NCBI GenBank assembly: GCA_021806235.1
Contig: JAJZXU010000024.1
Span: forward strand, 62,001 to 126,000
Origin: Thermoplasmata archaeon
GTDB lineage: Archaea; Thermoplasmatota; Thermoplasmata; Thermoplasmatales; Thermoplasmataceae
Direction of reading: 5' to 3'
DNA length: 64,000 bases
Below the pieces are notes generated by a model. The model did not search any database and was not told the DNA's origin. It saw nothing but the letters and a program-made list of their open reading frames with translations. The translations under genes were made by a program, and so were the position numbers. Numbering within the stretch: the stretch's first letter is position 1; every line of letters begins with the position of its first letter. Shown piece by piece: positions 50,125-60,008 of this stretch.

Positions 50125-50892
50125 ATGTATGGCATTTCTATAGTAATTACAGTATATAATGAGGAGAAAAATATACGGGACCTTCTGCATTCGTTGATAC
50201 TGCAGGAACAGCCTGTAGAAATAATTATAGTTGACTCAATGAGCACTGATAAGACTCCGGAAATAATTAAACAGTATACCAATAAATATAAATTTATAAA
50301 ATATTATAGAAAACTGTCTACAAGAGGAGAGGGTCGTAATTACGGTGTTTCACTCTCAAAATATGATTATATAGCATTTACAGATGGTGATGCTGTTGCA
50401 CATGAATACTGGATAAAAAATATGAGGAAATTAATTAATAAGTATGATTTAATTGCCGGTGAAACACTGAATGCCGGTAATAAAAAATATTCAGCCGGGA
50501 GACTAAAATTATTCTATAATGGATTTGAGGTTACACAACCATCAGCGAATCTATGTTATTCAAAGGAGTTGTTCAATAAAATAAAAGGTTTCGATGAAAA
50601 ATTTGTAACTGCTGAGGATATTGATTTAAATATCAGGGCAATAAATGCAGGTGCAAGGTATACCTGCTGTAACAATTGCCTTGTGTATAATAAAGCCCGG
50701 GACAATTTACATGATTTTTTTAAGCAGGCATACTGGAATGGTTATGGTAGGGGTCAGTTAAAAGCAAAATATAGGGATATCAAATTTGATCATCAAAATG
50801 AGTTAAAAAGGATCTTCATGCCAAAATATATCATGCGTAATGGGGCAGGATTAATAGGGTATTTGGCTTACAAATGGAGAAAAAATAAATAA
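50125..50892 (+). CDS. Family 2 glycosyltransferase
   Basis: GT-A fold glycosyltransferase. Opening ISIVITVYNEEKNIRDLL (residues 4-21) is the nucleotide-binding strand, IIVDSMSTDKT is the donor loop, and AFTDGDAVA is the DxD-type metal motif. ETLNAGN and AEDIDLNIRA are the acceptor-side motifs, the latter with the catalytic ED. Length is 255 residues. There is a single possible C-terminal hydrophobic helix. Probable role: surface glycan or glycoprotein synthesis in a wall-less archaeon. Confidence 0.88.
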   Translation: MYGISIVITVYNEEKNIRDLLHSLILQEQPVEIIIVDSMSTDKTPEIIKQYTNKYKFIKYYRKLSTRGEGRNYGVSLSKYDYIAFTDGDAVAHEYWIKNMRKLINKYDLIAGETLNAGNKKYSAGRLKLFYNGFEVTQPSANLCYSKELFNKIKGFDEKFVTAEDIDLNIRAINAGARYTCCNNCLVYNKARDNLHDFFKQAYWNGYGRGQLKAKYRDIKFDHQNELKRIFMPKYIMRNGAGLIGYLAYKWRKNK

Positions 50893-51132
50893 TGATAGAC
50901 ATTCAAATAAAAAATATATATCATTAGGGTAGAAATAATTACAGGCATAACATTTTTTATTATGGAGGAGATATTTAGCAGTATTTCTAACCTGAGTTCC
51001 GCACTTATATTTTTGTGGAATTATAGTATTAACCAATATTTTACCGCTTTTCTGTGCGAAAGCAGGTCATTTTGTCTGTGTACCATCCAGCAATGTAATC
51101 GATGTGGATTTCATAGTTTCCAGAATTCAATA

Positions 51133-52083
51133 TTATTCATATAAATCCGTTGATAGATACTTAAGCCCCGTATCAGGCAAAATTGTTACCACCACACTTC
51201 CACTATCAAGGGTGGAATCAAGTTTCATAGAAGCCGCCACATTGGCACCGCCAGAAAAGCCCGCAAATATACCCTCTTCTTTTGCCATACTTCTGGCAAC
51301 TTTTATTGCCTCCTCGTCAGAAACCGCGAGATATCCATCAACCAGCCCCTCATACCAGTATGGTGGTTTTACAGCGTGTCCTCCACCCTGTATTCTATGC
51401 TTTGTTGTTATAACTTTTCCACCGGCAAGGAAAGGTGCCACATCCGGCTCTACTGGATAACATTTTATGTTATCATTAAAATTTTTGAGTGCTTTTGAAA
51501 CACCTATAAACGTTCCACCCGTTCCTATATATGCGGCAAATGCATCTATCCTGCCTCCCGTTTGCTCCAGTATTTCCCTACCTGTTGTTTTTTCATGTAC
51601 CTTCCAGTTCATCGGATTGGAATACTGGTTTGGTCTATAGGCATTTAACTCTTCCATTAGCTCTATGGTTTTCCTTTCTACTGCCTCATTGTCTACTCTT
51701 GATATCTGCCCGGGTTTTTCACCTGGAAGTTGGGGAACAAGGACAACCGTTGCCCCCATTGCCTTTAGCATTTTCTGCCTTTCAATGGAATTGCCTGCAG
51801 ATATAACCGCAACAAATTTGTAACCCTTAACAGCGCATACTATTGCTAAACCTATGCCTGTATTACCTGATGTTTTTCCAATAATGGTATCACCGGGCTT
51901 TATAATGGCTTTTCTCTCGGCTTCCTCCAACATGCCTATTGCTATTCTATCTTTTATACTCAAACCAGGATTATAGTATTCCAGCTTCACATATATTTCT
52001 ATATTTTTGCAACCTGTTTTATTTAATCTAACGAGGGGCGTGTTGCCTATGGCTCCTAGGACATTCTCCTTTACATCCATCAT
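51133..52083 (-). CDS. cysK: Cysteine synthase family PLP enzyme
   Basis: Makes cysteine from sulfide and O-acetylserine or O-phosphoserine. Lys44 (LSIKDRIAIGM) binds PLP, GKTSGNTGIG is the substrate loop, and GTGGTFIGVSKALK is the phosphate loop (about residues 174-187). PVEPDVAPFLAG and VSDEEAI are also family motifs. The 316-residue length fits both CysK and CysM. An archaeal preference for O-phosphoserine cannot be decided here. The upstream start is followed by SD-poor AT-rich DNA; ATG at 52083 or 52080 are equivalent. Confidence 0.93.
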   Translation of the reverse strand: MMDVKENVLGAIGNTPLVRLNKTGCKNIEIYVKLEYYNPGLSIKDRIAIGMLEEAERKAIIKPGDTIIGKTSGNTGIGLAIVCAVKGYKFVAVISAGNSIERQKMLKAMGATVVLVPQLPGEKPGQISRVDNEAVERKTIELMEELNAYRPNQYSNPMNWKVHEKTTGREILEQTGGRIDAFAAYIGTGGTFIGVSKALKNFNDNIKCYPVEPDVAPFLAGGKVITTKHRIQGGGHAVKPPYWYEGLVDGYLAVSDEEAIKVARSMAKEEGIFAGFSGGANVAASMKLDSTLDSGSVVVTILPDTGLKYLSTDLYE

Positions 52084-52563
52084 ATTTTATAATCGCATAA
52101 CTCATATTTAACATTATATGTAAAATGTAACTTAACTAATTGAATTGATATACACAATTAGTCCATTCCCGCATTTACACCACAATGGTGTATGTACATT
52201 TATTGCAGAAAAGTGCAGGAAAATCCGTAAAATTCAATATATACAATAACTACTGGATGGAAATGCCAAAACGATAGGTTCAGGCAATAAAAAAATTGAG
52301 GATTAATAAAACCCTTAGAACAGTATTATAAAATAAATGATATTACAGACAAGGTTTTTAATTTTAACCGTTATTCAATGGTTTTAATGGTAATATACAC
52401 ATTGATAAGTAAACGAAAGGTATATACTACACCTCATATTTGCATGGTCACAGGGACTGGCAAAACACGGTACTGTGGGAAAAGTTGATCCCTCTCATGC
52501 ATACATTACCGACCGGTTACTCCAAAACAAAAAAACTTTATCCTTTAATTTTATAAGAGTGGC
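52084..52563. other. Intergenic region without a recognised gene
   Basis: Several short inverted motifs (for example CACCACAATGGTG at about 52178-52190). Around 52440-52530 a less AT-rich patch (GGCAAAACACGGTACTGTGGG) could be a scar of a mobile element. The last 50 bp contain the promoter for the small gene at 52564. Confidence 0.3.
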
Positions 52564-52719
52564 ATGGTCGCTAAAATATCTGACTTTAAAGGGCATAAAA
52601 TAATAACATTGTCAGTGAAAGAAGATGATAAATATCCTTTCTCCTTTGGTGTTGCGAAGGCTAAATTAATTCTTGAGAACCTGGATGAAATTAAAAAATT
52701 TGTTGATGAATCTAAATAA
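52564..52719 (+). CDS. Small conserved-looking protein of 51 residues
   Basis: ATG at 52564 opens a frame with a clean protein pattern: AKISDFKGHKIITL, then DDKYPFSFGVAKAKLILENLDEIKKFV. This FKG...ITL...KYPFSFGVAKAKLIL...IKKFV pattern recalls a family of very short conserved archaeal/bacterial proteins of unknown role. An AT-rich promoter with TTTATCCTTTAATTTTATAAGAG lies directly upstream. The gene stands alone. Confidence 0.65.
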   Translation: MVAKISDFKGHKIITLSVKEDDKYPFSFGVAKAKLILENLDEIKKFVDESK

Positions 52720-52844
52720 TTTTTAATTTGTTATACCCTGAATTTCGCAAGAAAACTGGTGTAAAACTGCGAATTGAGCCTTTGTATTTAGGAATATTTT
52801 TAATTTTTTAATGCTCTTCCGGTAGTGCACCAGTGAATACCATG

Positions 52845-54171
52845 TCAGATGGATTTACCCTCATCCTGTATACCTTCTTTAGCCTCTCTGATATAATCAT
52901 ATTCGGAATCATTTTCCTCTTCTGCATTGGTTCTAAACTCATCACTCATTTTGGTGAATTTTTCGTCCTCGATACCTGTTAAGTTTGAGCCAAGGATACG
53001 TTTAATACTTGCCTTCAAAAAATCGTATCTTTCTCTCGAAGTTGCTGAAATAAGGATGTCATTCTTCTTGAACTCCAGGTTGCCATAGACTATCAATCCA
53101 GAATCTGTATCTAAACCGTTACCTCTCTGATCCACGAGTTGAGTTTGGAGAATGAAAACATTCTTCTTATCTTTTACTTCGGGGTTATGTGGAATTGGTG
53201 GATCAGGGTCAATCCAGTTATAAAAATGTTTTTTATTGCCTGCTGCAACAATGAAATCCTTACTTTTTGATATGGCGTTAATCGCGGTGCCTGTTTCCCT
53301 GATCTTAACAGTGCCAGAACAGAACATTATTTCATGACCTTCTGGTGTGATAAACTTCTTTTCCCTTGATGTTTTAGCCACCTGTTCAATTTTATGTATG
53401 ATTTCAAGACTTGTTTCCCTGAGAAATTTTTTCCGGTTTTCGGGATTATCGGTAGAGATAGCATGCTGATTCTGGAATGTTTTGTAGCCTGAATGAAGTA
53501 TATCCATCAGTTCTTCCTTCGTGGAATAAGGAACCTTGATAACTCCAGAACCAAATCTGGAATATATCTCAAAATCGTATGCCCTTACAAACATCAGGTC
53601 ATACTTCCGCATAAGAATTGAGGAGGTGGTGTCAGCAATAAGTTTACGCTTACCATGTTCAAGGAACATGTCCTCAATTGAATACCCAACCCCCTTCCTT
53701 ATATTAATTACTGTATAGAGGGAGAATACAGAATCTGACCAGTTTTTAAGATAATTCTTTTCTCTTTCGGGAAGAGATGAATAAACTTCCTTTAACACCC
53801 TCCTGATTAGGGAAGTATTTTTTCCAGAAGGGATGAAATCATGGATATATCAGTCCATAAAAAGTTGTAAATCATCATCCATAACTATGCGGTCACCAAA
53901 ATCGAATTTTTTCATTCCCTCTCCTAAGCTTTCTTTATCTAAATCAGAATATTTCATTATGATTGATCTGAGATGGTCCTCAGGCGGATCAGTCTTCTTT
54001 CTTTCTGTTATTATGGGAAGGCAGCATTGTTTGAATTTTTTCCACTACCGCACGGGCAGTCGTCGTTTCTCCGATCTTATTAAATTCCTCATTTATACGC
54101 CTTCGAATCTCCTCTACCTGCTCATTAATTCCATCGTATGGTTCCTCCTCATCATCATTTTTAGTTACCAT
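52845..54171 (-). pseudogene. SEC-C/DUF-type hypothetical protein gene, broken by frameshift and stop
   Basis: A single ancestral gene of about 440 codons is split. 54171-53989 gives the N-terminal 60 residues; a one-base frameshift near 53990-54000 then leads into TDPPEDHLRSIIMKYSDLDKESLGEG. That frame continues to a TGA at 53850-53852 in LQLFMD-stop-YIHDF, where relatives of this kind usually have Trp (DWY), so TGG to TGA is likely. The last part (53798-52845) remains open. The protein family resembles bacterial SEC-C-associated proteins with an LFxDWY...G.T segment; its role is unknown. Confidence 0.7.
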
Positions 54172-54350
54172 GATATCTTTTATAAATAATATTTTACAGT
54201 TTAAAGTATTCTATTACTTACAATTAATCGAGGTGAATCGCACCAGTTTAAATTTACATAAGTTAACAAAGCCCTCTGACCAAAAATACTCAATTAATCA
54301 CGCGACTCTCTACTTATCTTTATGATAAAGGATTTGCACACATATATAAA

Positions 54351-54492
54351 TGGAAGCCGCGGGACTTGAACCCAGATCTAAGGGTCTCTTCCATGTTTCA
54401 TCGTTCCAGTCATTCATCATAAATTCAGATAACCTTTAGCTAATCACAAACTGACTGGAGCCCTCCAGGATACCCGACTACCCCATGCTCCC
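54351..54492 (-). pseudogene. Degenerate copy of tRNA-Trp with intron
   Basis: 142 nt, differing from the intact copy at 56184-56325 at about eight positions; only one change is in the intron. The acceptor/T region has lost pairing: the acceptor GGGAGCA faces GGCTTCC (a wobble and a mismatch), and the T stem CTGGG faces CCCGC. No archaeal promoter is visible on its 5' side (54493-54530), whereas the intact copy has one. I take it for a pseudo-tRNA. Confidence 0.75.
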
Positions 54493-56183
54493 TTAATAAA
54501 ATGTGAGATTCCTGGACACCGGTTGATTAATGATGAGTTGATCTGCTCATGGCCGTAGACACAAGTTGGGAATTTTTAAAACTCTCAGATTTAAAATGTC
54601 ATTGTCTGTCAGTGACATGAACCTGGCATGAGTGATTCCATTGCAGAAGGAATTTTCATTTGGCGTTGGTATGCATCAATAACAAAATTATCTGATACCA
54701 TCAAGGTCGATGCAGTAATAGCCTTCTCCAATCAATTTTTGTTTTTCCTCTATTTTCAACGCAATTATACCGAAAAATGCTTTTTTGCCTGGATATATTT
54801 CGTTATAATTATTTACCATGTTAACTAATATTGATTTTGCCCCGTTATAATTTAATTTTTTATACTTTACCTCGAAAATACCGGTATATATCTTATCAAT
54901 ATCCTGAACTACAATATCGAATTCATAGATTTCCCCGGACCTTGATTTTTTCCATGATCTTCCGATATAAAATATATTAAATGGCATGATACTGTATTTT
55001 ATTAACAATTCACGTGCAATAAATTCAAATCTGTGTCCATAATATGTGTTAATATTCTTATCTATTTTATCATACACGTATTCTATATTATTAATTTCCA
55101 GTAGGCTTTTATAAGGGTAAACAAAACGGAACCAGAATGCAAAAAAATTATCCCTTATGTAATATATATGACTTTTTTTGTTTCCCGTTAGTAATGGCGA
55201 TTCTTTTCTAACTATTTCAGATCTCTCCAGAACATTTAGTACTTTAGAAAGCTTGTTCTGGGCTATATGTGATTTCAATGAGATCTCATTGAATGCTGAT
55301 GCTCCATTTGCAATGGAACTCAGAGCAGAAAAATATGATGTTATATCCTTATATTCCTCAAATAGCAAATTTAAAGGTTCATGATATAAATAGGAATTCT
55401 TATTCAGTATTTTGTTTATTATATTTTCCCTCAGGGTTTTATATGTGAATTCTTCCAGATACCTTGGAACCCCACCAAGGATCATGAATATTTTTGAGGT
55501 TTCAGCATAACTTACATTAAAAAATTTTGATGAATTTATGAAATTAAGTGGTGCAATATTCATTTCTCCAGTTTTTCTGCCATACAGCGCCGATCCATAA
55601 CCAAGGGATATTCCGTATATGGATGAAATTAAGGATCCAGAGAGTATCAAAAATATTTTTGTATTTTTCAATTCCTCCCAGTGGCGTTGCAATATTGTTG
55701 GCCATGCCCTGAAAACGGTATAAAGGTACTGGAATTCATCGATAGCCACAACAAACCTCTCATTTTTAGAAATACTGTACAGAAAATTGAAAAAATCATC
55801 CCAGTTAGAAAATTTTACATAATTAAATTTCTGTGACGCAATTTCAGAAAAGGTATCAAGTATATTGTCGCTGGCATCTGCCATAAAGAATAGTGATCTT
55901 TTATCTGCAGTGAAGTGCTGCAGTAAGGTTGTCTTGCCTACCCGTCTCCTACCATACAGAATCAACAGCTGTGCCCTGTCTTCAGCATTGAAATTTTCAA
56001 GTGAATTCAATTCATTTTCTCTGTCAATAAACATACTTTTGATAATCATACTTTATAGTATGTTTTTATTATATTTAAACCTGATTTTGGCAGGTAATTT
56101 TTAATTTGAATCTTGATTATATGATGCACACCACGTGTATCACTCATTTATAGCAGTAAAAATGAAAAGGGCTTCCAGAAATA
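54493..56183. mobile_element. 1.7-kb segment between two tRNA-Trp copies, carrying an ATPase gene
   Basis: The segment is bounded exactly by direct 142-bp copies of the tRNA-Trp gene, both on the minus strand. It contains one complete gene (DUF234 ATPase) and, at its left edge, TTCATTTGGCGTTG (54656-54669), which is also present at 56793-56806 within IS21-like end repeats. tRNA genes are common integration targets; the duplication of the whole gene instead of its 3' half is unusual. The mechanism is inferred; no integrase gene is present. Confidence 0.55.
54688..56049 (-). CDS. Archaeal-type ATPase with C-terminal DUF234 nuclease-like domain
   Basis: STAND-like ATPase of the archaeal ATP_bind family. 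Walker A GRRRVGKT is at residues 33-40, Walker B VVAIDEFQYL at about 100-109, and SGSLISS is the sensor-1 region. A winged helix follows (about 260-300: HIAQNKLSKVLNVLERSEIV). The C-terminal DUF234 part (about 360-450) has EFDIVV and IFEVKYK, the acidic and lysine positions of a PD-(D/E)xK nuclease-like fold. Such genes are numerous and mobile in archaea; their role is unsettled. It is enclosed by the two tRNA-Trp copies. Confidence 0.88.
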   Translation of the reverse strand: MIIKSMFIDRENELNSLENFNAEDRAQLLILYGRRRVGKTTLLQHFTADKRSLFFMADASDNILDTFSEIASQKFNYVKFSNWDDFFNFLYSISKNERFVVAIDEFQYLYTVFRAWPTILQRHWEELKNTKIFLILSGSLISSIYGISLGYGSALYGRKTGEMNIAPLNFINSSKFFNVSYAETSKIFMILGGVPRYLEEFTYKTLRENIINKILNKNSYLYHEPLNLLFEEYKDITSYFSALSSIANGASAFNEISLKSHIAQNKLSKVLNVLERSEIVRKESPLLTGNKKSHIYYIRDNFFAFWFRFVYPYKSLLEINNIEYVYDKIDKNINTYYGHRFEFIARELLIKYSIMPFNIFYIGRSWKKSRSGEIYEFDIVVQDIDKIYTGIFEVKYKKLNYNGAKSILVNMVNNYNEIYPGKKAFFGIIALKIEEKQKLIGEGYYCIDLDGIR

Positions 56184-56325
56184 TGGAAGCACTGGGATTT
56201 GAACCCAGATCTAAGGGTCTCTTCCATGTTTCATCGTTCCAGTCATTCATCATAAATTCAGATGACCTTTAGCTAATCACAAACTGACTGGAGCCCTCTA
56301 GGATACCTGACTACCCCATGCTTCC
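56184..56325 (-). tRNA. tRNA-Trp (anticodon CCA) with 69-nt intron
   Basis: Acceptor GGAAGCA/TGCTTCC and T arm CTGGG-TTCAAAT-CCCAG pair fully, and anticodon stem GAGGG/CCCTT has one G-T pair. Anticodon loop CT-CCA-G is followed by an intron of 69 nt, inserted after position 37, the standard archaeal site. Intron bases UGACUGGA (43-50) pair with UCCAGUCA spanning anticodon and exon-intron joint, as in a bulge-helix-bulge splice structure. An archaeal TATA-like element (TTTATATTA on the minus strand, about 56343-56352) supports transcription. CCA is not encoded. Confidence 0.93.
56219..56287 (-). ncRNA. tRNA-Trp intron, candidate box C/D guide RNA
   Basis: Within the 69-nt intron, motifs run in order: box C-like GUGAUUA (8-14), box D' CUGA (27-30), box C' AUGAUGA (35-41) and a weak box D AUGA (54-57). 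By the N+5 rule the guide before D' (CUAAAGGU) pairs with ACCCUUAG and points to C39; the guide before D (UGACUGGA) pairs with UCCAGUCA and points to C34. Euryarchaeal tRNA-Trp introns are known to guide 2'-O-methylation of positions 34 and 39 in their own tRNA. Box D is non-canonical. Confidence 0.6.
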
Positions 56326-57111
56326 TCATAACTATATTATTTTTTAATATAAATATCTATAGTGTTTATTCGGCAAAATGGCATATGGCATCAAAATCCT
56401 TGCACGCCGAGGGGTATATATGGCTAACCAGTGTAAGTTTGGTATGGGAAATTACCTGTTCATACCAATAAGGCTTGTCAACGCCAATGTAATTTTCCCC
56501 ACCCATATATACACTTTGATTCATTTTTATTTTATCTCGTTTATTTTAGTATTCCCAATATTCTTTCTCTCTTTATATTTGGGTACAACCCTGGAATTCA
56601 CATACTTTTTCACAGTATTTCTGTTCACATCAACTCCTTTGCTATGTCTGATATTTTCACGCCGTTCTCAGCCATCTTTCTCATCATATACCACCTCTCA
56701 TCTCTAAACATTTAGTTTTCCTCATCTTCGGTAAGAAATAGGGGGATTCTAATTGGCGTTTTGAGGATTTTTATTCTGGCGTTTCCGGGTAAAATTCATT
56801 TGGCGTTGACACTCCGGTATTCCTCTTGAGAGGATACAGTTCGGCTATATAGCAACCAGGTTCATGCAGGGGGACTCCTTGACATGGTTGAGGGGGTGGG
56901 CCACCATGTTGACAGTGAGGGTCTTGAGAGAATTGGACTGTACTATGATTTTAAAAAAAACTTCCTTTTCCTTTCATTCTACAGGAAAAGGCCATCAGGG
57001 AATCGGAAAACTGCAGGCAGTGCGGGAAAAGATTGATGGAACACCACACATACGGCAGGTCAACAGCACTGATTGTATTGCAATAATGTTTATTAACTAT
57101 TGATACCTACA
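56326..57111. mobile_element. IS21-type remnants
   Basis: No intact gene in nearly 800 bp. On the minus strand, 56709-56525 encodes a broken IstA transposase N-terminus (YMMRKMAENGVKISDIAKE, then after a frameshift VNRNTVKKYVNSRVVPKYK). TTGGCGTT-type repeats at about 56751, 56774 and 56798, about 23 bp apart, plus an inverted TGTCAACGCCAA at 56477-56488, resemble the multiple terminal repeats of IS21 elements. The plus-strand frame 56864-57103 (79 codons) is of unclear reality. Confidence 0.6.
56525..56709 (-). pseudogene. istA-like transposase fragment with frameshift
   Basis: Start ATG at 56709: MFRDERWYMMRKMAENG leads into an IS21 IstA helix-turn-helix. One frame stops after AKELM; the neighbouring frame continues VNRNTVKKYVNSRVVPKYKERK, then ends. 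The HTH plus NTVKKY plus PKYK order is characteristic of IstA proteins. Only about 60 of about 400 codons remain. Confidence 0.65.
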
Positions 57112-57126
57112 GTTACCTATGGTAAC
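57112..57126. promoter_or_regulatory. Palindrome over the relB start codon, probable operator
   Basis: GTTACC-TAT-GGTAAC is a perfect inverted repeat whose centre includes the ATG of relB (57119). Flanking CTACAGTT is present on both sides as a direct repeat. Binding of RelB here would block transcription or initiation, in line with known autoregulation of RelBE systems. Confidence 0.55.
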
Positions 57127-57379
57127 TACAGTTCAGATTGATAATGAACTCAAAGAAAGGCTGAATCGCCTAAAAATACATCCAAGGGAATCTTACAACG
57201 ACCTTATTTCGAGGCTAATAGATTCATATTCCACTAATATGGCCAGCAGGGAATCTTTAATAGAAACACTTGAGATTCTTTCAGATCCGGAAATGATGGC
57301 TGGCATTGCAAGAGGGCTTGAAGACATAAAGTCAGGCAGAACGAAGGCACTCAATCAAATTGTCAAAGAGTTTGATTAG
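57119..57379 (+). CDS. relB: RelB-type antitoxin
   Basis: 86 residues. The N-terminal strand-helix TTVQIDNELKERLNRLKI and HPRESYNDLISRLIDSY are ribbon-helix-helix features; the C-terminal helical part (SLIETLEILSDPEMMAGI with ARGLEDIKSG) is typical of archaeal RelB proteins that wrap RelE. Its stop is 3 bp before the TTG start of the toxin gene. The start codon lies inside a palindrome (57112-57126). Confidence 0.85.
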   Translation: MVTTVQIDNELKERLNRLKIHPRESYNDLISRLIDSYSTNMASRESLIETLEILSDPEMMAGIARGLEDIKSGRTKALNQIVKEFD

Positions 57380-57381
57380 TA

Positions 57382-57636
57382 TTGTCCTTTGAGATTGTAT
57401 TCACTAAGGAATCAGAGGATTTTATCAAAAAATGTGACAAAGCAGTCAGAGATAGGATACTTGGATCTCTCCGCAGGCTTGAAAATGACCCTGAGATCGG
57501 GAAACCCCTAACTTCAATAATGGCCGGGCTGTGGAGTTTGAAGATCGGGGATTACCGTGCAATATATCAGATTAAGAACAACGAATTAATAGTTGTTGTA
57601 ATAAAGATTGGGCATAGAAAGAATGTATACGGATAA
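57382..57636 (+). CDS. relE: RelE-type mRNA interferase toxin
   Basis: 84-residue RelE/ParE fold toxin that cleaves mRNA on the ribosome. It starts with TTG (MSFEIVFTKESEDFIKK), then helix DKAVRDRILGSLRRL, and the beta-sheet LKIGDYRAIYQIKNNELIVVVIKIGHRKNVY with Arg and His positions used for catalysis. The TTG start is accepted because it gives the normal N-terminal strand and lies 3 bp after the antitoxin stop. Confidence 0.9.
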   Translation: MSFEIVFTKESEDFIKKCDKAVRDRILGSLRRLENDPEIGKPLTSIMAGLWSLKIGDYRAIYQIKNNELIVVVIKIGHRKNVYG

Positions 57637-57735
57637 TTAAACCCGGTATTTTTAACCTTAATTCAATTAAAATATAATAGTTTAATAAGTTTCGTTCAGG
57701 CCTATATTTTAACCCAATGCACTGTATAATCTTAG

Positions 57736-57897
57736 ATGAACAGAATAAAAAGAAATAACATGCTGAATAAAGCTGAAATTAATGAACTTGCAACCCAGTT
57801 AAGGGCTATGGACCGAAATATTTTAGGTGTTGCAATTCTGGATTTAACAGAGTGCTTTTGGTATGTCCTATCCAAATTTGGATATTATGCAAAGTGA
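57736..57897 (+). CDS. Small ORF of 53 codons, unknown
   Basis: ATG at 57736 opens a peptide with an amphipathic helix (MLNKAEINELATQLRAMDRNI) and a beta-rich end (LGVAILDLTECFWYVLSKFGYY). It looks like the first half of an alpha/beta sensory or Roadblock-like domain cut short by TGA. It is probably a fragment. A few TATA-like bases (TGTATAATC) lie directly upstream. Confidence 0.35.
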   Translation: MNRIKRNNMLNKAEINELATQLRAMDRNILGVAILDLTECFWYVLSKFGYYAK

Positions 57898-58057
57898 TAT
57901 ATATTTAGGCAATAATATAATTATATTACTATAATCCACTAAATTAGGAGATTTTTAATAGAGTAATTCAATATTATGAAGTAAGGATATCCCTTTATGT
58001 CAGAATACTTTAATTTGGGATATTTGACTGTATATACCACTTTTTAACTATAATATT

Positions 58058-58150
58058 AGTCTATCTGTATTCCGTGTATTACACATTTTCTGTCCGGTCA
58101 AATAATTAGACTCTCCACTCAAAAAGTCTCCAACTTTTGTGGTACAGGTC
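58058..58150 (-). mobile_element. Insertion-sequence remnant, copy 2
   Basis: Matches 45037-45128, sharing CTCAAAAA.TCTCCAA.TTTTGTGGTACAG and the preceding TCAAATAATTAGA/CCAAATAATCAGA block, then diverges. On the minus strand short frames (NTRNTDRL against KTRNTKDL of copy 1) suggest common transposase-coding origin. Confidence 0.55.
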
Positions 58151-58302
58151 AATCAAAAATCTAAAAGGATTTTGACACCATATAAAATGGCAACAATATA
58201 ATAGATACAGTAAAAAACACATTTACTGATTGGAACATACATATAACCCAAACTAAATAAAAACTGTTTAAATTTACATTTTTAATATAAAAAATATTTA
58301 AT

Positions 58303-59394
58303 TTATATAATGCCCGCTGAGATAAAAGTTATAATAACAACAATTACTGGAATGGATATTAACAGAATAAATATAACAAGCCCTACCGGGCGACCGAAAT
58401 TTATCGTGTATCCAACACCGAATCTTTTCGGTACCATCATGCGTGTATCATTTTTATTATAATAGAGCACTCCAGCTTTCCACAGAGAATCATCATCACT
58501 GTTATTGGATACTTTATTATCATTATCTATCTTAATATTGCTACCCAGCTGGCCTGTTTTAAATGAAACAACAAGGACAAGAACTACCATTAGAAATATG
58601 GGAATAAGGTCAACTAAAATATTCTTTTTTAATATCCCCCACATCTGAAAACTGCTAATCAGCAGTGTAGAATTTATAAATGCCGGGATTAATAGCACAG
58701 TATAAACCATTCTTTCCCTGAATAGCATCGCCTTTTTCTCTCCATTTGATGATGCATTATCTGTTTTCAATGAAGTTTTATATATAGCATATGCAAGAAG
58801 AATAATCATTGCCGTGGTTACTATGCTTATAAATCCAAGAATAAAGACACTGCCTATTGATTTTATTGAATATGCATTTGGAACACCATTTGCATTGAAA
58901 TGTGTTGCAAATTTATGTGGTATATTTTTATAATATAATAACCCTGTAATAAATATTGAAATAGTTATTAATATTCCCGGAATTCCGAAAAACCATGGAA
59001 ATTTTGCTTTTTCTGTATTGAATATGCCAGTAATCTTATTTTCATTCACGTTTCCATTCATAATCCAGTGCTCACTGCTTTTAATTTTTTTCAGTCTGTA
59101 ATGTTCTGGCAAATATACCATAAATTCTACTATTATAATAAATAATGGCATAAGGGATATTATAAATATATAGGGGGTTATCAATGTTATAACCGTAAAA
59201 ATTGCTGTCAAAATTAAAACAATAAACAGATATGTTTTTTTCATTTTATTTACAGTATTAGAATTAATATACTCCAGGGGTATCCTTACACCAAATATTA
59301 CGGATTTTTCAGTCATATATGGTACCATAGCTATTATTATTCCTATTATAAATACAAATAAGGTTTCAGTAATGGTAAATAATGTTATAACCAT
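58303..59394 (-). CDS. DUF1648-containing membrane protein (SdpI-like)
   Basis: 363 residues with eight or more hydrophobic helices. The DUF1648 motif lies at about residues 160-185: KNIPHKFATHFNANGVPNAY. Such proteins, when next to YtrA/GntR-type repressors, act in bacteria as sensors or immunity proteins for membrane-active peptides. The gene follows its regulator with no spacer (59394/59395). A middle Asn/Asp-rich loop (NIKIDNDNKVSNNSDDDS) faces the cytoplasm. The exact role in archaea is not known. Confidence 0.82.
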   Translation of the reverse strand: MVITLFTITETLFVFIIGIIIAMVPYMTEKSVIFGVRIPLEYINSNTVNKMKKTYLFIVLILTAIFTVITLITPYIFIISLMPLFIIIVEFMVYLPEHYRLKKIKSSEHWIMNGNVNENKITGIFNTEKAKFPWFFGIPGILITISIFITGLLYYKNIPHKFATHFNANGVPNAYSIKSIGSVFILGFISIVTTAMIILLAYAIYKTSLKTDNASSNGEKKAMLFRERMVYTVLLIPAFINSTLLISSFQMWGILKKNILVDLIPIFLMVVLVLVVSFKTGQLGSNIKIDNDNKVSNNSDDDSLWKAGVLYYNKNDTRMMVPKRFGVGYTINFGRPVGLVIFILLISIPVIVVIITFISAGII

Positions 59395-59775
59395 TTAATC
59401 AGCCCCGTTTTTTAAATTTAGAATATTTTTTACTGTTTTTATTATATCATCATCGTTTAAGCCCCTAACCATAGCCTCGTTTATTATATCAATTTCCTTT
59501 TTTTTAAAATTATCAATGGCATTTCCCGTTTTATTTTTCTTTGATATTATATACCTTTTATTCTTTGTAAGTTCAATAATGCCATTTTCACGTAATAATT
59601 GATATGCCTTATTTACCGTATGGAAATTTATATTTAGAACGCCTGCTATTTCCCTGGAAGATGGTATTTTATCTCCAGGATGAATGTTATTAGAAGCTAT
59701 CTGTTCAACTATCTGATTATATATCTGCCGGTATACCGTATCCTCAAGGTTGTAATCAATACTTATTTTCAACAT
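59395..59775 (-). CDS. GntR-family (YtrA-like) transcriptional regulator
   Basis: 126 residues. The N-terminal winged helix follows the GntR pattern: YRQIYNQIVEQIASNNIHPGDKIPSSREIAGVLNINFHTVNKAYQLLRENGII. The short C-terminal arm (about 50 residues) defines the YtrA subfamily. It is the first gene of a two-gene operon with the DUF1648 protein. A perfect 10+3+10 palindrome lies at 59785-59807, 9 bp upstream of the start, and is almost certainly its operator. Confidence 0.92.
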   Translation of the reverse strand: MLKISIDYNLEDTVYRQIYNQIVEQIASNNIHPGDKIPSSREIAGVLNINFHTVNKAYQLLRENGIIELTKNKRYIISKKNKTGNAIDNFKKKEIDIINEAMVRGLNDDDIIKTVKNILNLKNGAD

Positions 59776-59784
59776 TTATTACAC

Positions 59785-59807
59785 CTGTTATATATATTAT
59801 ATAACAG
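59785..59807. promoter_or_regulatory. Palindromic operator upstream of the GntR/DUF1648 operon
   Basis: CTGTTATATA-TAT-TATATAACAG is a perfect inverted repeat of 23 bp. It begins 9 bp before the regulator start codon and its centre resembles a TATA box, so bound repressor would also block transcription-factor access. Assignment to the regulator is by position. Confidence 0.65.
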
Positions 59808-60008
59808 TTAAATATAAAGTTTACCTTTTAAACGATATTCTGCATAGCCTGTATACCAAATTTTTAATTTTTTAATAAAAAATATTATAACAGAACAGGT
59901 AAATTACCGCATCATTAAAGAAAACCGTACTGAGTTTTAAAAAATATTTTCAAATTCTGTATAGATAATAAAAATACCGGTCTGAAATAAACAAGTAAAA
60001 ATGTAAAC

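Follow-up and report, generated by a model that had tools for sequence, protein, structure and literature searches.

tRNA genes serve as targets of integrases (reviewed in PMC8371274; Islander, PMC4383910), and tRNA-Trp has been listed beside the islands of acidophilic archaea (PMC12302457). That archaeal tRNA-Trp can carry a box C/D intron is likewise already known (PMC4090602), and for the tRNA-Thr of Caldiarchaeum an attachment (att) site carrying a tRNA intron has been proposed (PMC3293823). Here we describe a locus at which a complete, intron-containing tRNA-Trp gene is present twice, on either side of an ATPase gene. It lies in a window of 64,000 nt (contig JAJZXU010000024.1, 62,001–126,000) from an acidophilic Thermoplasmata archaeon (genome G000), and coordinates are positions in this window unless another contig is named.

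Direct repeats at 54350–54493 and 56183–56326 (94% identity, spacing 1833 bp) each hold a minus-strand tRNA-Trp(CCA) gene of 142 bp that is interrupted after position 37 by a box C/D-type intron. In the right copy, the exons comprise tRNA-sense positions 1–38 and 108–142, and the 69-nt intron has box C/D-like motifs. As to C/D boxes and guides for C34/U39, motifs could be seen in the sequence, and the Rfam model sR2 gave sub-threshold matches only (19 bits). The original prediction of direct 142-bp repeats at these borders with about eight differences proved accurate: exactly eight tRNA-sense positions differ (3, 18, 27, 62, 128 and 133–135), the changes in the left copy being A3G, A18G, A27G, C62T, A128G and AGT133–135GCG in the 142-bp numbering. 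Since the best ungapped match among 20 shuffles was just 61/142, a chance origin of the repeat is excluded. An assembly artefact is unlikely as well, because the two copies differ at eight sites and have distinct flanks. Identity ends within one base of both ends of the tRNA-Trp gene, and the flanks outside match at 13/30 and 11/30 positions, which is the chance level. ARAGORN reported neither copy; a covariance model for tRNA-Trp built from the genes of relatives scored the right copy at 169.7 bits and the left copy at 141.9 bits. A third tRNA-Trp match in the same genome (C10:158767–158797) turned out to be the T arm of another tRNA. No terminal inverted repeats were found at the borders of 54351–56325, and the combination of such repeats with a target-site duplication, by which an insertion sequence or transposon would be recognized, is absent around this segment.

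The right copy (56184–56325, minus strand) forms all 20 cloverleaf pairs, and all 27 modelled pairs when the bulge-helix-bulge is included. Upstream of it, in the promoter region at 56326–56369 (minus strand), lies a TATA-like box (TTTATATTAA) of the type (TTTATATTAA or TTTATATCAA) that also precedes the tRNA-Trp genes of congeners. The CCA anticodon, the intron after position 37 and the bulge-helix-bulge pairing are conserved through the family. At the sequence level, the right copy is identical to the gene of the closest relative, G002, 98–99% identical to those of most other congeners and 97% identical to that of G003 over a partial match; the gene order upstream agrees with G002 and G005. 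Because the promoter is common to congeners and the sequence identical to that of G002, we regard the right copy as the ancestral, working tRNA-Trp gene. On its 3′ side, 26 bp (56158–56183, minus strand) are common to G002, where an integrase remnant comes next, which suggests that this flank is probably element-derived. Together with the tRNA-Trp 3′ end it forms a terminator-like hairpin.

Farther upstream of the right copy, a transposon-like insertion occupies 56375–58191; G002 is without it and has the single-copy site. The insertion has 19-nt terminal inverted repeats (56383–56401 and 58165–58183, 17/19 matching), a flanking 8-bp direct repeat (AAAATGGC) and a RelB/RelE-type toxin-antitoxin pair at 57119–57636, with no intact transposase. 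Its ends recur on three other contigs of the same genome (C17, C20 and C35). Nested inside it, at 56476–56811, is a MITE-like sequence of 336 bp whose inverted repeats are 25 nt long (TGTCAACGCCAA ends), together with debris resembling the start of a helix-turn-helix transposase.

The left copy (54351–54492, minus strand) keeps 18 of the 20 cloverleaf pairs. Pairs 7-66 (A-G) and 49-65 (C-C) are broken, pairs 3-70 and 50-64 have become G-U, and the intron is almost intact. The TATA-like box of congeners was not found upstream, and most of the changes fall at positions that are invariant in the family alignment. From these features, we read it as a dead, full-length pseudogene of the genus-type tRNA-Trp and a second copy of the genome's only tryptophan tRNA gene. 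The expectation that the right copy would fold well and have a promoter, and that the left would be damaged and promoterless, was thus borne out. An origin of the left copy in another genus can be rejected, given its genus-type intron and the changes at family-invariant positions. Six of its seven G+C-altering changes go toward G or C, although the window has 34% G+C; neutral decay should rather lower the G+C content.

Both copies lie in a variable stretch between core genes (50890–59937); in G005, these core genes have nothing but tRNA-Trp and some 1 kb between them. Usable tRNA-Trp flank (190 bases or more) was available for 26 genomes of the family, and 11 of these have a tyrosine-integrase gene or remnant directly behind tRNA-Trp, oriented antisense with its 3′ end toward the tRNA gene (G002, G004, G006, G009, G011, G015, G016, G024, G026, G029 and G035). 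Judged by these genes and remnants, the tRNA-Trp locus is an integration hotspot in the family. In G009, an island of 30.5 kb adjoins the 3′ end of tRNA-Trp (C1:585387–615911; L070, L069, L110), with an intact integrase whose open frame extends into the antisense of tRNA-Trp. The far repeat of this island consists of the last 19 nt of tRNA-Trp, and next to it stand 169 nt from the 3′ end of an integrase. The corresponding empty site is seen in G004, which has the same sequence as beyond the G009 far repeat and no island, and this occupied/empty pair gives the attachment site of the family-wide hotspot. Similarly, a 20-nt 3′ fragment of tRNA-Trp and an integrase remnant lie between the ATPase and tRNA-Trp in G002. 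As integration here usually copies just 19–20 nt (G009, G002), the full-length repeat of the window is exceptional, in line with the initial remark that it departs from the usual duplication of a tRNA 3′ end. In G011, an integrase adjoins tRNA-Trp, and a search of 60 kb revealed no distal att repeat. Downstream of either window copy, tblastn (E<0.1) found no integrase remnant. The assemblies of G023 (L075/L076), G045 (L077/L078) and G048 (L079/L080) are interrupted at tRNA-Trp, which would be expected if some cells of the population carried an insertion at the hotspot.

The second copy is also rare. Among 117 genomes of the order, no other had two intron-type tRNA-Trp genes on one contig, nor did the covariance model find a second same-contig copy in any other of the near-complete genomes of the class with a recognizable gene (n = 56). 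On the evidence of these searches, the duplication is specific to the G000 lineage among the sampled genomes. An old, fixed duplication, with both copies in all relatives, had been named at the outset as the contrary case; it can be rejected, as no relative carries both. What looks like a second copy in G023, G045 and G048 is an overlap at contig ends (141, 127 and 127 bp, respectively) where the assembler split one gene. G063 and G092 each have two differing tRNA-Trp copies on separate contigs, possibly due to contamination, as is perhaps also the case for a partial second copy in G029. The two genes of G063 are full length (L100 on C77, 4544–4680; L101 on C112, 98–235) and their contigs end in the same downstream sequence, so that this pair is either contamination or another whole-gene duplication.

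A single intact gene lies between the two window copies, as had been predicted. It encodes an ATPase of 453 aa (54688–56049, minus strand) with ATPase_2 and DUF234 domains, both above the Pfam cut-offs (66.8 and 68.8 bits). In G002, its homologue (92% aa identity) occupies the same place and orientation beside tRNA-Trp, within a shared block (54610–56078 of the window, minus strand; 91.6% nt identity) that includes the ATPase and lacks the left tRNA copy. Comparison of the two genes (dN 0.038, dS 0.281, dN/dS ∼0.13) indicates that the ATPase is under purifying selection. Only G000 and G002 have it adjoining tRNA-Trp. Beyond the left copy, a SEC-C-like pseudogene (52845–54171, minus strand; motif CPCGSGK..FKQCC) has about two frameshifts and one in-frame TGA stop. 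Just the last ∼25 bp of this gene are left in G002, where 478 bp of different sequence stand in place of the stretch from 52870 to about 54610, in which the SEC-C pseudogene and the left tRNA copy of the window are located. The left copy may therefore have been lost in G002 or may never have been present there; its loss by deletion is plausible because the neighbouring SEC-C gene has been cut down.

The divergence of the left copy, 8/142 or 5.6%, allows a rough dating. Neutral divergence per lineage since the split from G002 ranges from ∼6.8% (intergenic stretch 52084–52844) to 14% (half the ATPase dS), which predicts ∼10 to 20 changes in 142 bp. With eight observed, the left copy would have arisen roughly around or after the split of G000 and G002; the number is too small to tell an older copy that disappeared from G002 apart from a gain in G000 only. 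Should the left copy be younger than the split, an element with the ATPase inside could not have had it as its far border.

We favour, with a probability of roughly 45%, the reading that the left copy is the fossil of a one-off event in which DNA with a complete tRNA-Trp gene recombined at attB, after which the integrase disappeared and decay set in. In this view, the right copy is the attB used by tyrosine-recombinase elements in this archaeal family, and the incoming DNA may have been an element that, through imprecise excision at another site, had picked up the gene in full. Recombination would place a full-length tRNA at both borders, the right one keeping the chromosomal promoter and the left one having a foreign 5′ flank and no promoter. 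The event would date from about the time at which G002 split off, in keeping with the 8/142 changes in the left copy against about 10 expected per lineage from the intergenic divergence to G002. Afterwards, the integrase would have been lost, the left copy and the SEC-C gene would have decayed, and the ATPase would have been kept as selected resident cargo. Three of these steps are inferred: that a whole tRNA was captured, that it arrived together with the ATPase, and that G002 subsequently lost its left copy. This reading is supported in that it explains the gene-length repeat, the promoterless left copy and the place at an integrase hotspot. Edges of the duplicate within one base of the gene ends would follow from an attP that contained the gene and none of the host's flanks. 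The 3′ edge alone is not telling, since the 3′ flanks at the tRNA-Trp locus are replaced by each integration, and it is the exact 5′ edge of the copy that still needs explanation. Against integration, there is no integrase trace between the copies or behind the left one. An element with a whole tRNA-Trp was not found in IMG/VR (exact patterns), phages or plasmids, nor as a second same-contig copy in the other genomes searched, and the known integrations at this site use 19–20 nt only.

The closest rival, possible yet on balance doubtful, is that a local recombination or replication error copied tRNA-Trp with no mobile element involved, the ATPase being already present or arriving separately. 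Such copying might have occurred by template switching, by one-sided strand invasion that started from a 3′ fragment left at an earlier att site, or as a segmental duplication that was later trimmed. A one-off event in one lineage, with no integrase near either copy and an ATPase that is separable from the left copy, would fit this explanation, and short 3′ tRNA fragments able to prime the copying exist at the locus in relatives. Nothing in the process, however, would make the copy stop no more than one base from the 5′ end of the tRNA, and the promoter and flanks are absent from the copy. Both origins offered in the original prediction, an element with a whole tRNA-Trp on board and a duplication made by recombination, are candidates. 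A local accident would make the left copy a minor scar at a busy integration site. Delivery by an element, in contrast, would show how mobile DNA can move or replace tRNA introns and tRNA genes in archaea. A broader claim, that a mobile element in the genus uses a complete intron-containing tRNA-Trp as its attP and moves tRNA genes, introns and guide RNAs between archaea, is unlikely. If true, such an element would be the kind of vector that the intron-carrying attP model requires (PMC3293823), a model that does not itself show an intact gene.

Direct repeats around one gene could also mean that the 1.7-kb segment, made up of the ATPase and one repeat, is mobile in its own right and moves when one tRNA repeat recombines with the other, mobility having been inferred in the original prediction; DUF234 ATPases are indeed patchy across the family. 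We reject this idea, which has very little probability left, because in G002 the ATPase adjoins tRNA-Trp and there is no left copy, and the ATPase thus appears not to be mobile together with the repeats. The unit has neither an integrase remnant nor terminal inverted repeats, and the search for it elsewhere in the same genome, suggested with the prediction, returned only ATPase paralogues of ∼37% identity or less. The closest other homologues (59–63% identical) have no tRNA-Trp within about 1.5 kb; those of G004 and G009, at 63%, lie at other loci. No viral contig encoding a relative of the ATPase was found at the sensitivity used. The other allele that was to be looked for in relatives, with one tRNA-Trp and no ATPase, does exist: G005 has neither the ATPase nor the left copy. 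As G002 carries the ATPase and no left copy, however, the two borders do not delimit a single unit.

Insertion of a reverse-transcribed pre-tRNA-Trp, end-processed and unspliced, would account for a copy of exactly positions 1 to 73 plus the intron, as in such an end-trimmed precursor. It is nevertheless highly improbable, as the copy has no CCA tail, no target-site duplication was seen and no reverse transcriptase was found nearby; we know of no archaeal precedent for RNA-mediated tRNA copying. That both copies work, or that the left one is kept for its intron-encoded box C/D guide RNA, would suit the one intron change against seven in the exons, the reverse of the between-species pattern, but this split is not significant with positions 133–135 counted as one event (p ∼ 0.12, binomial), the copy is promoterless with two stem pairs broken and family-invariant positions changed, and the right copy already encodes the guide, so that we give this idea hardly any weight.

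Compared with described systems, the ATPase is an ordinary member of the archaeal ATPase_2/DUF234 family (PF01637/PF03008), having both domains and several paralogues per genome, and differs only in its place next to tRNA-Trp in G000 and G002. The right copy matches the archaeal tRNA-Trp genes with a box C/D intron (PMC4090602) in its CCA anticodon, the intron after position 37, of about 65–70 nt, and the C/D-like motifs; the left copy is unusual as a second, decayed gene. Archaeal integration by tyrosine recombinases of the SSV or pNOB8 type resembles the locus in the promoter-bearing target tRNA, the downstream direct repeat and the integrases or remnants at the same site in relatives. Here, by contrast, the far repeat is a whole intron-containing tRNA gene and not a 3′ fragment, and the integrase is gone. 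The target keeps its chromosomal promoter, as in integrated elements, but we do not class the locus as one, because it has neither a fragment-type far border nor an integrase between the repeats; it probably arose in the same setting. The Caldiarchaeum tRNA-Thr (PMC3293823) shares with it an archaeal tRNA sequence repeated around an inserted segment and the model of an intron-containing att site. In Caldiarchaeum, what is repeated is a 5′ fragment of the tRNA and the intron is a new gain, whereas the window has a complete gene with an old, family-wide intron. If the left copy was indeed delivered by an element, the locus would be a candidate for an intron-carrying att site, rather than proof of one. 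Its setting, tRNA-gene integration and a tRNA-Trp with a box C/D intron, is known, and what sets the locus apart is mainly that a whole intron-containing gene was copied instead of the usual 3′ end.
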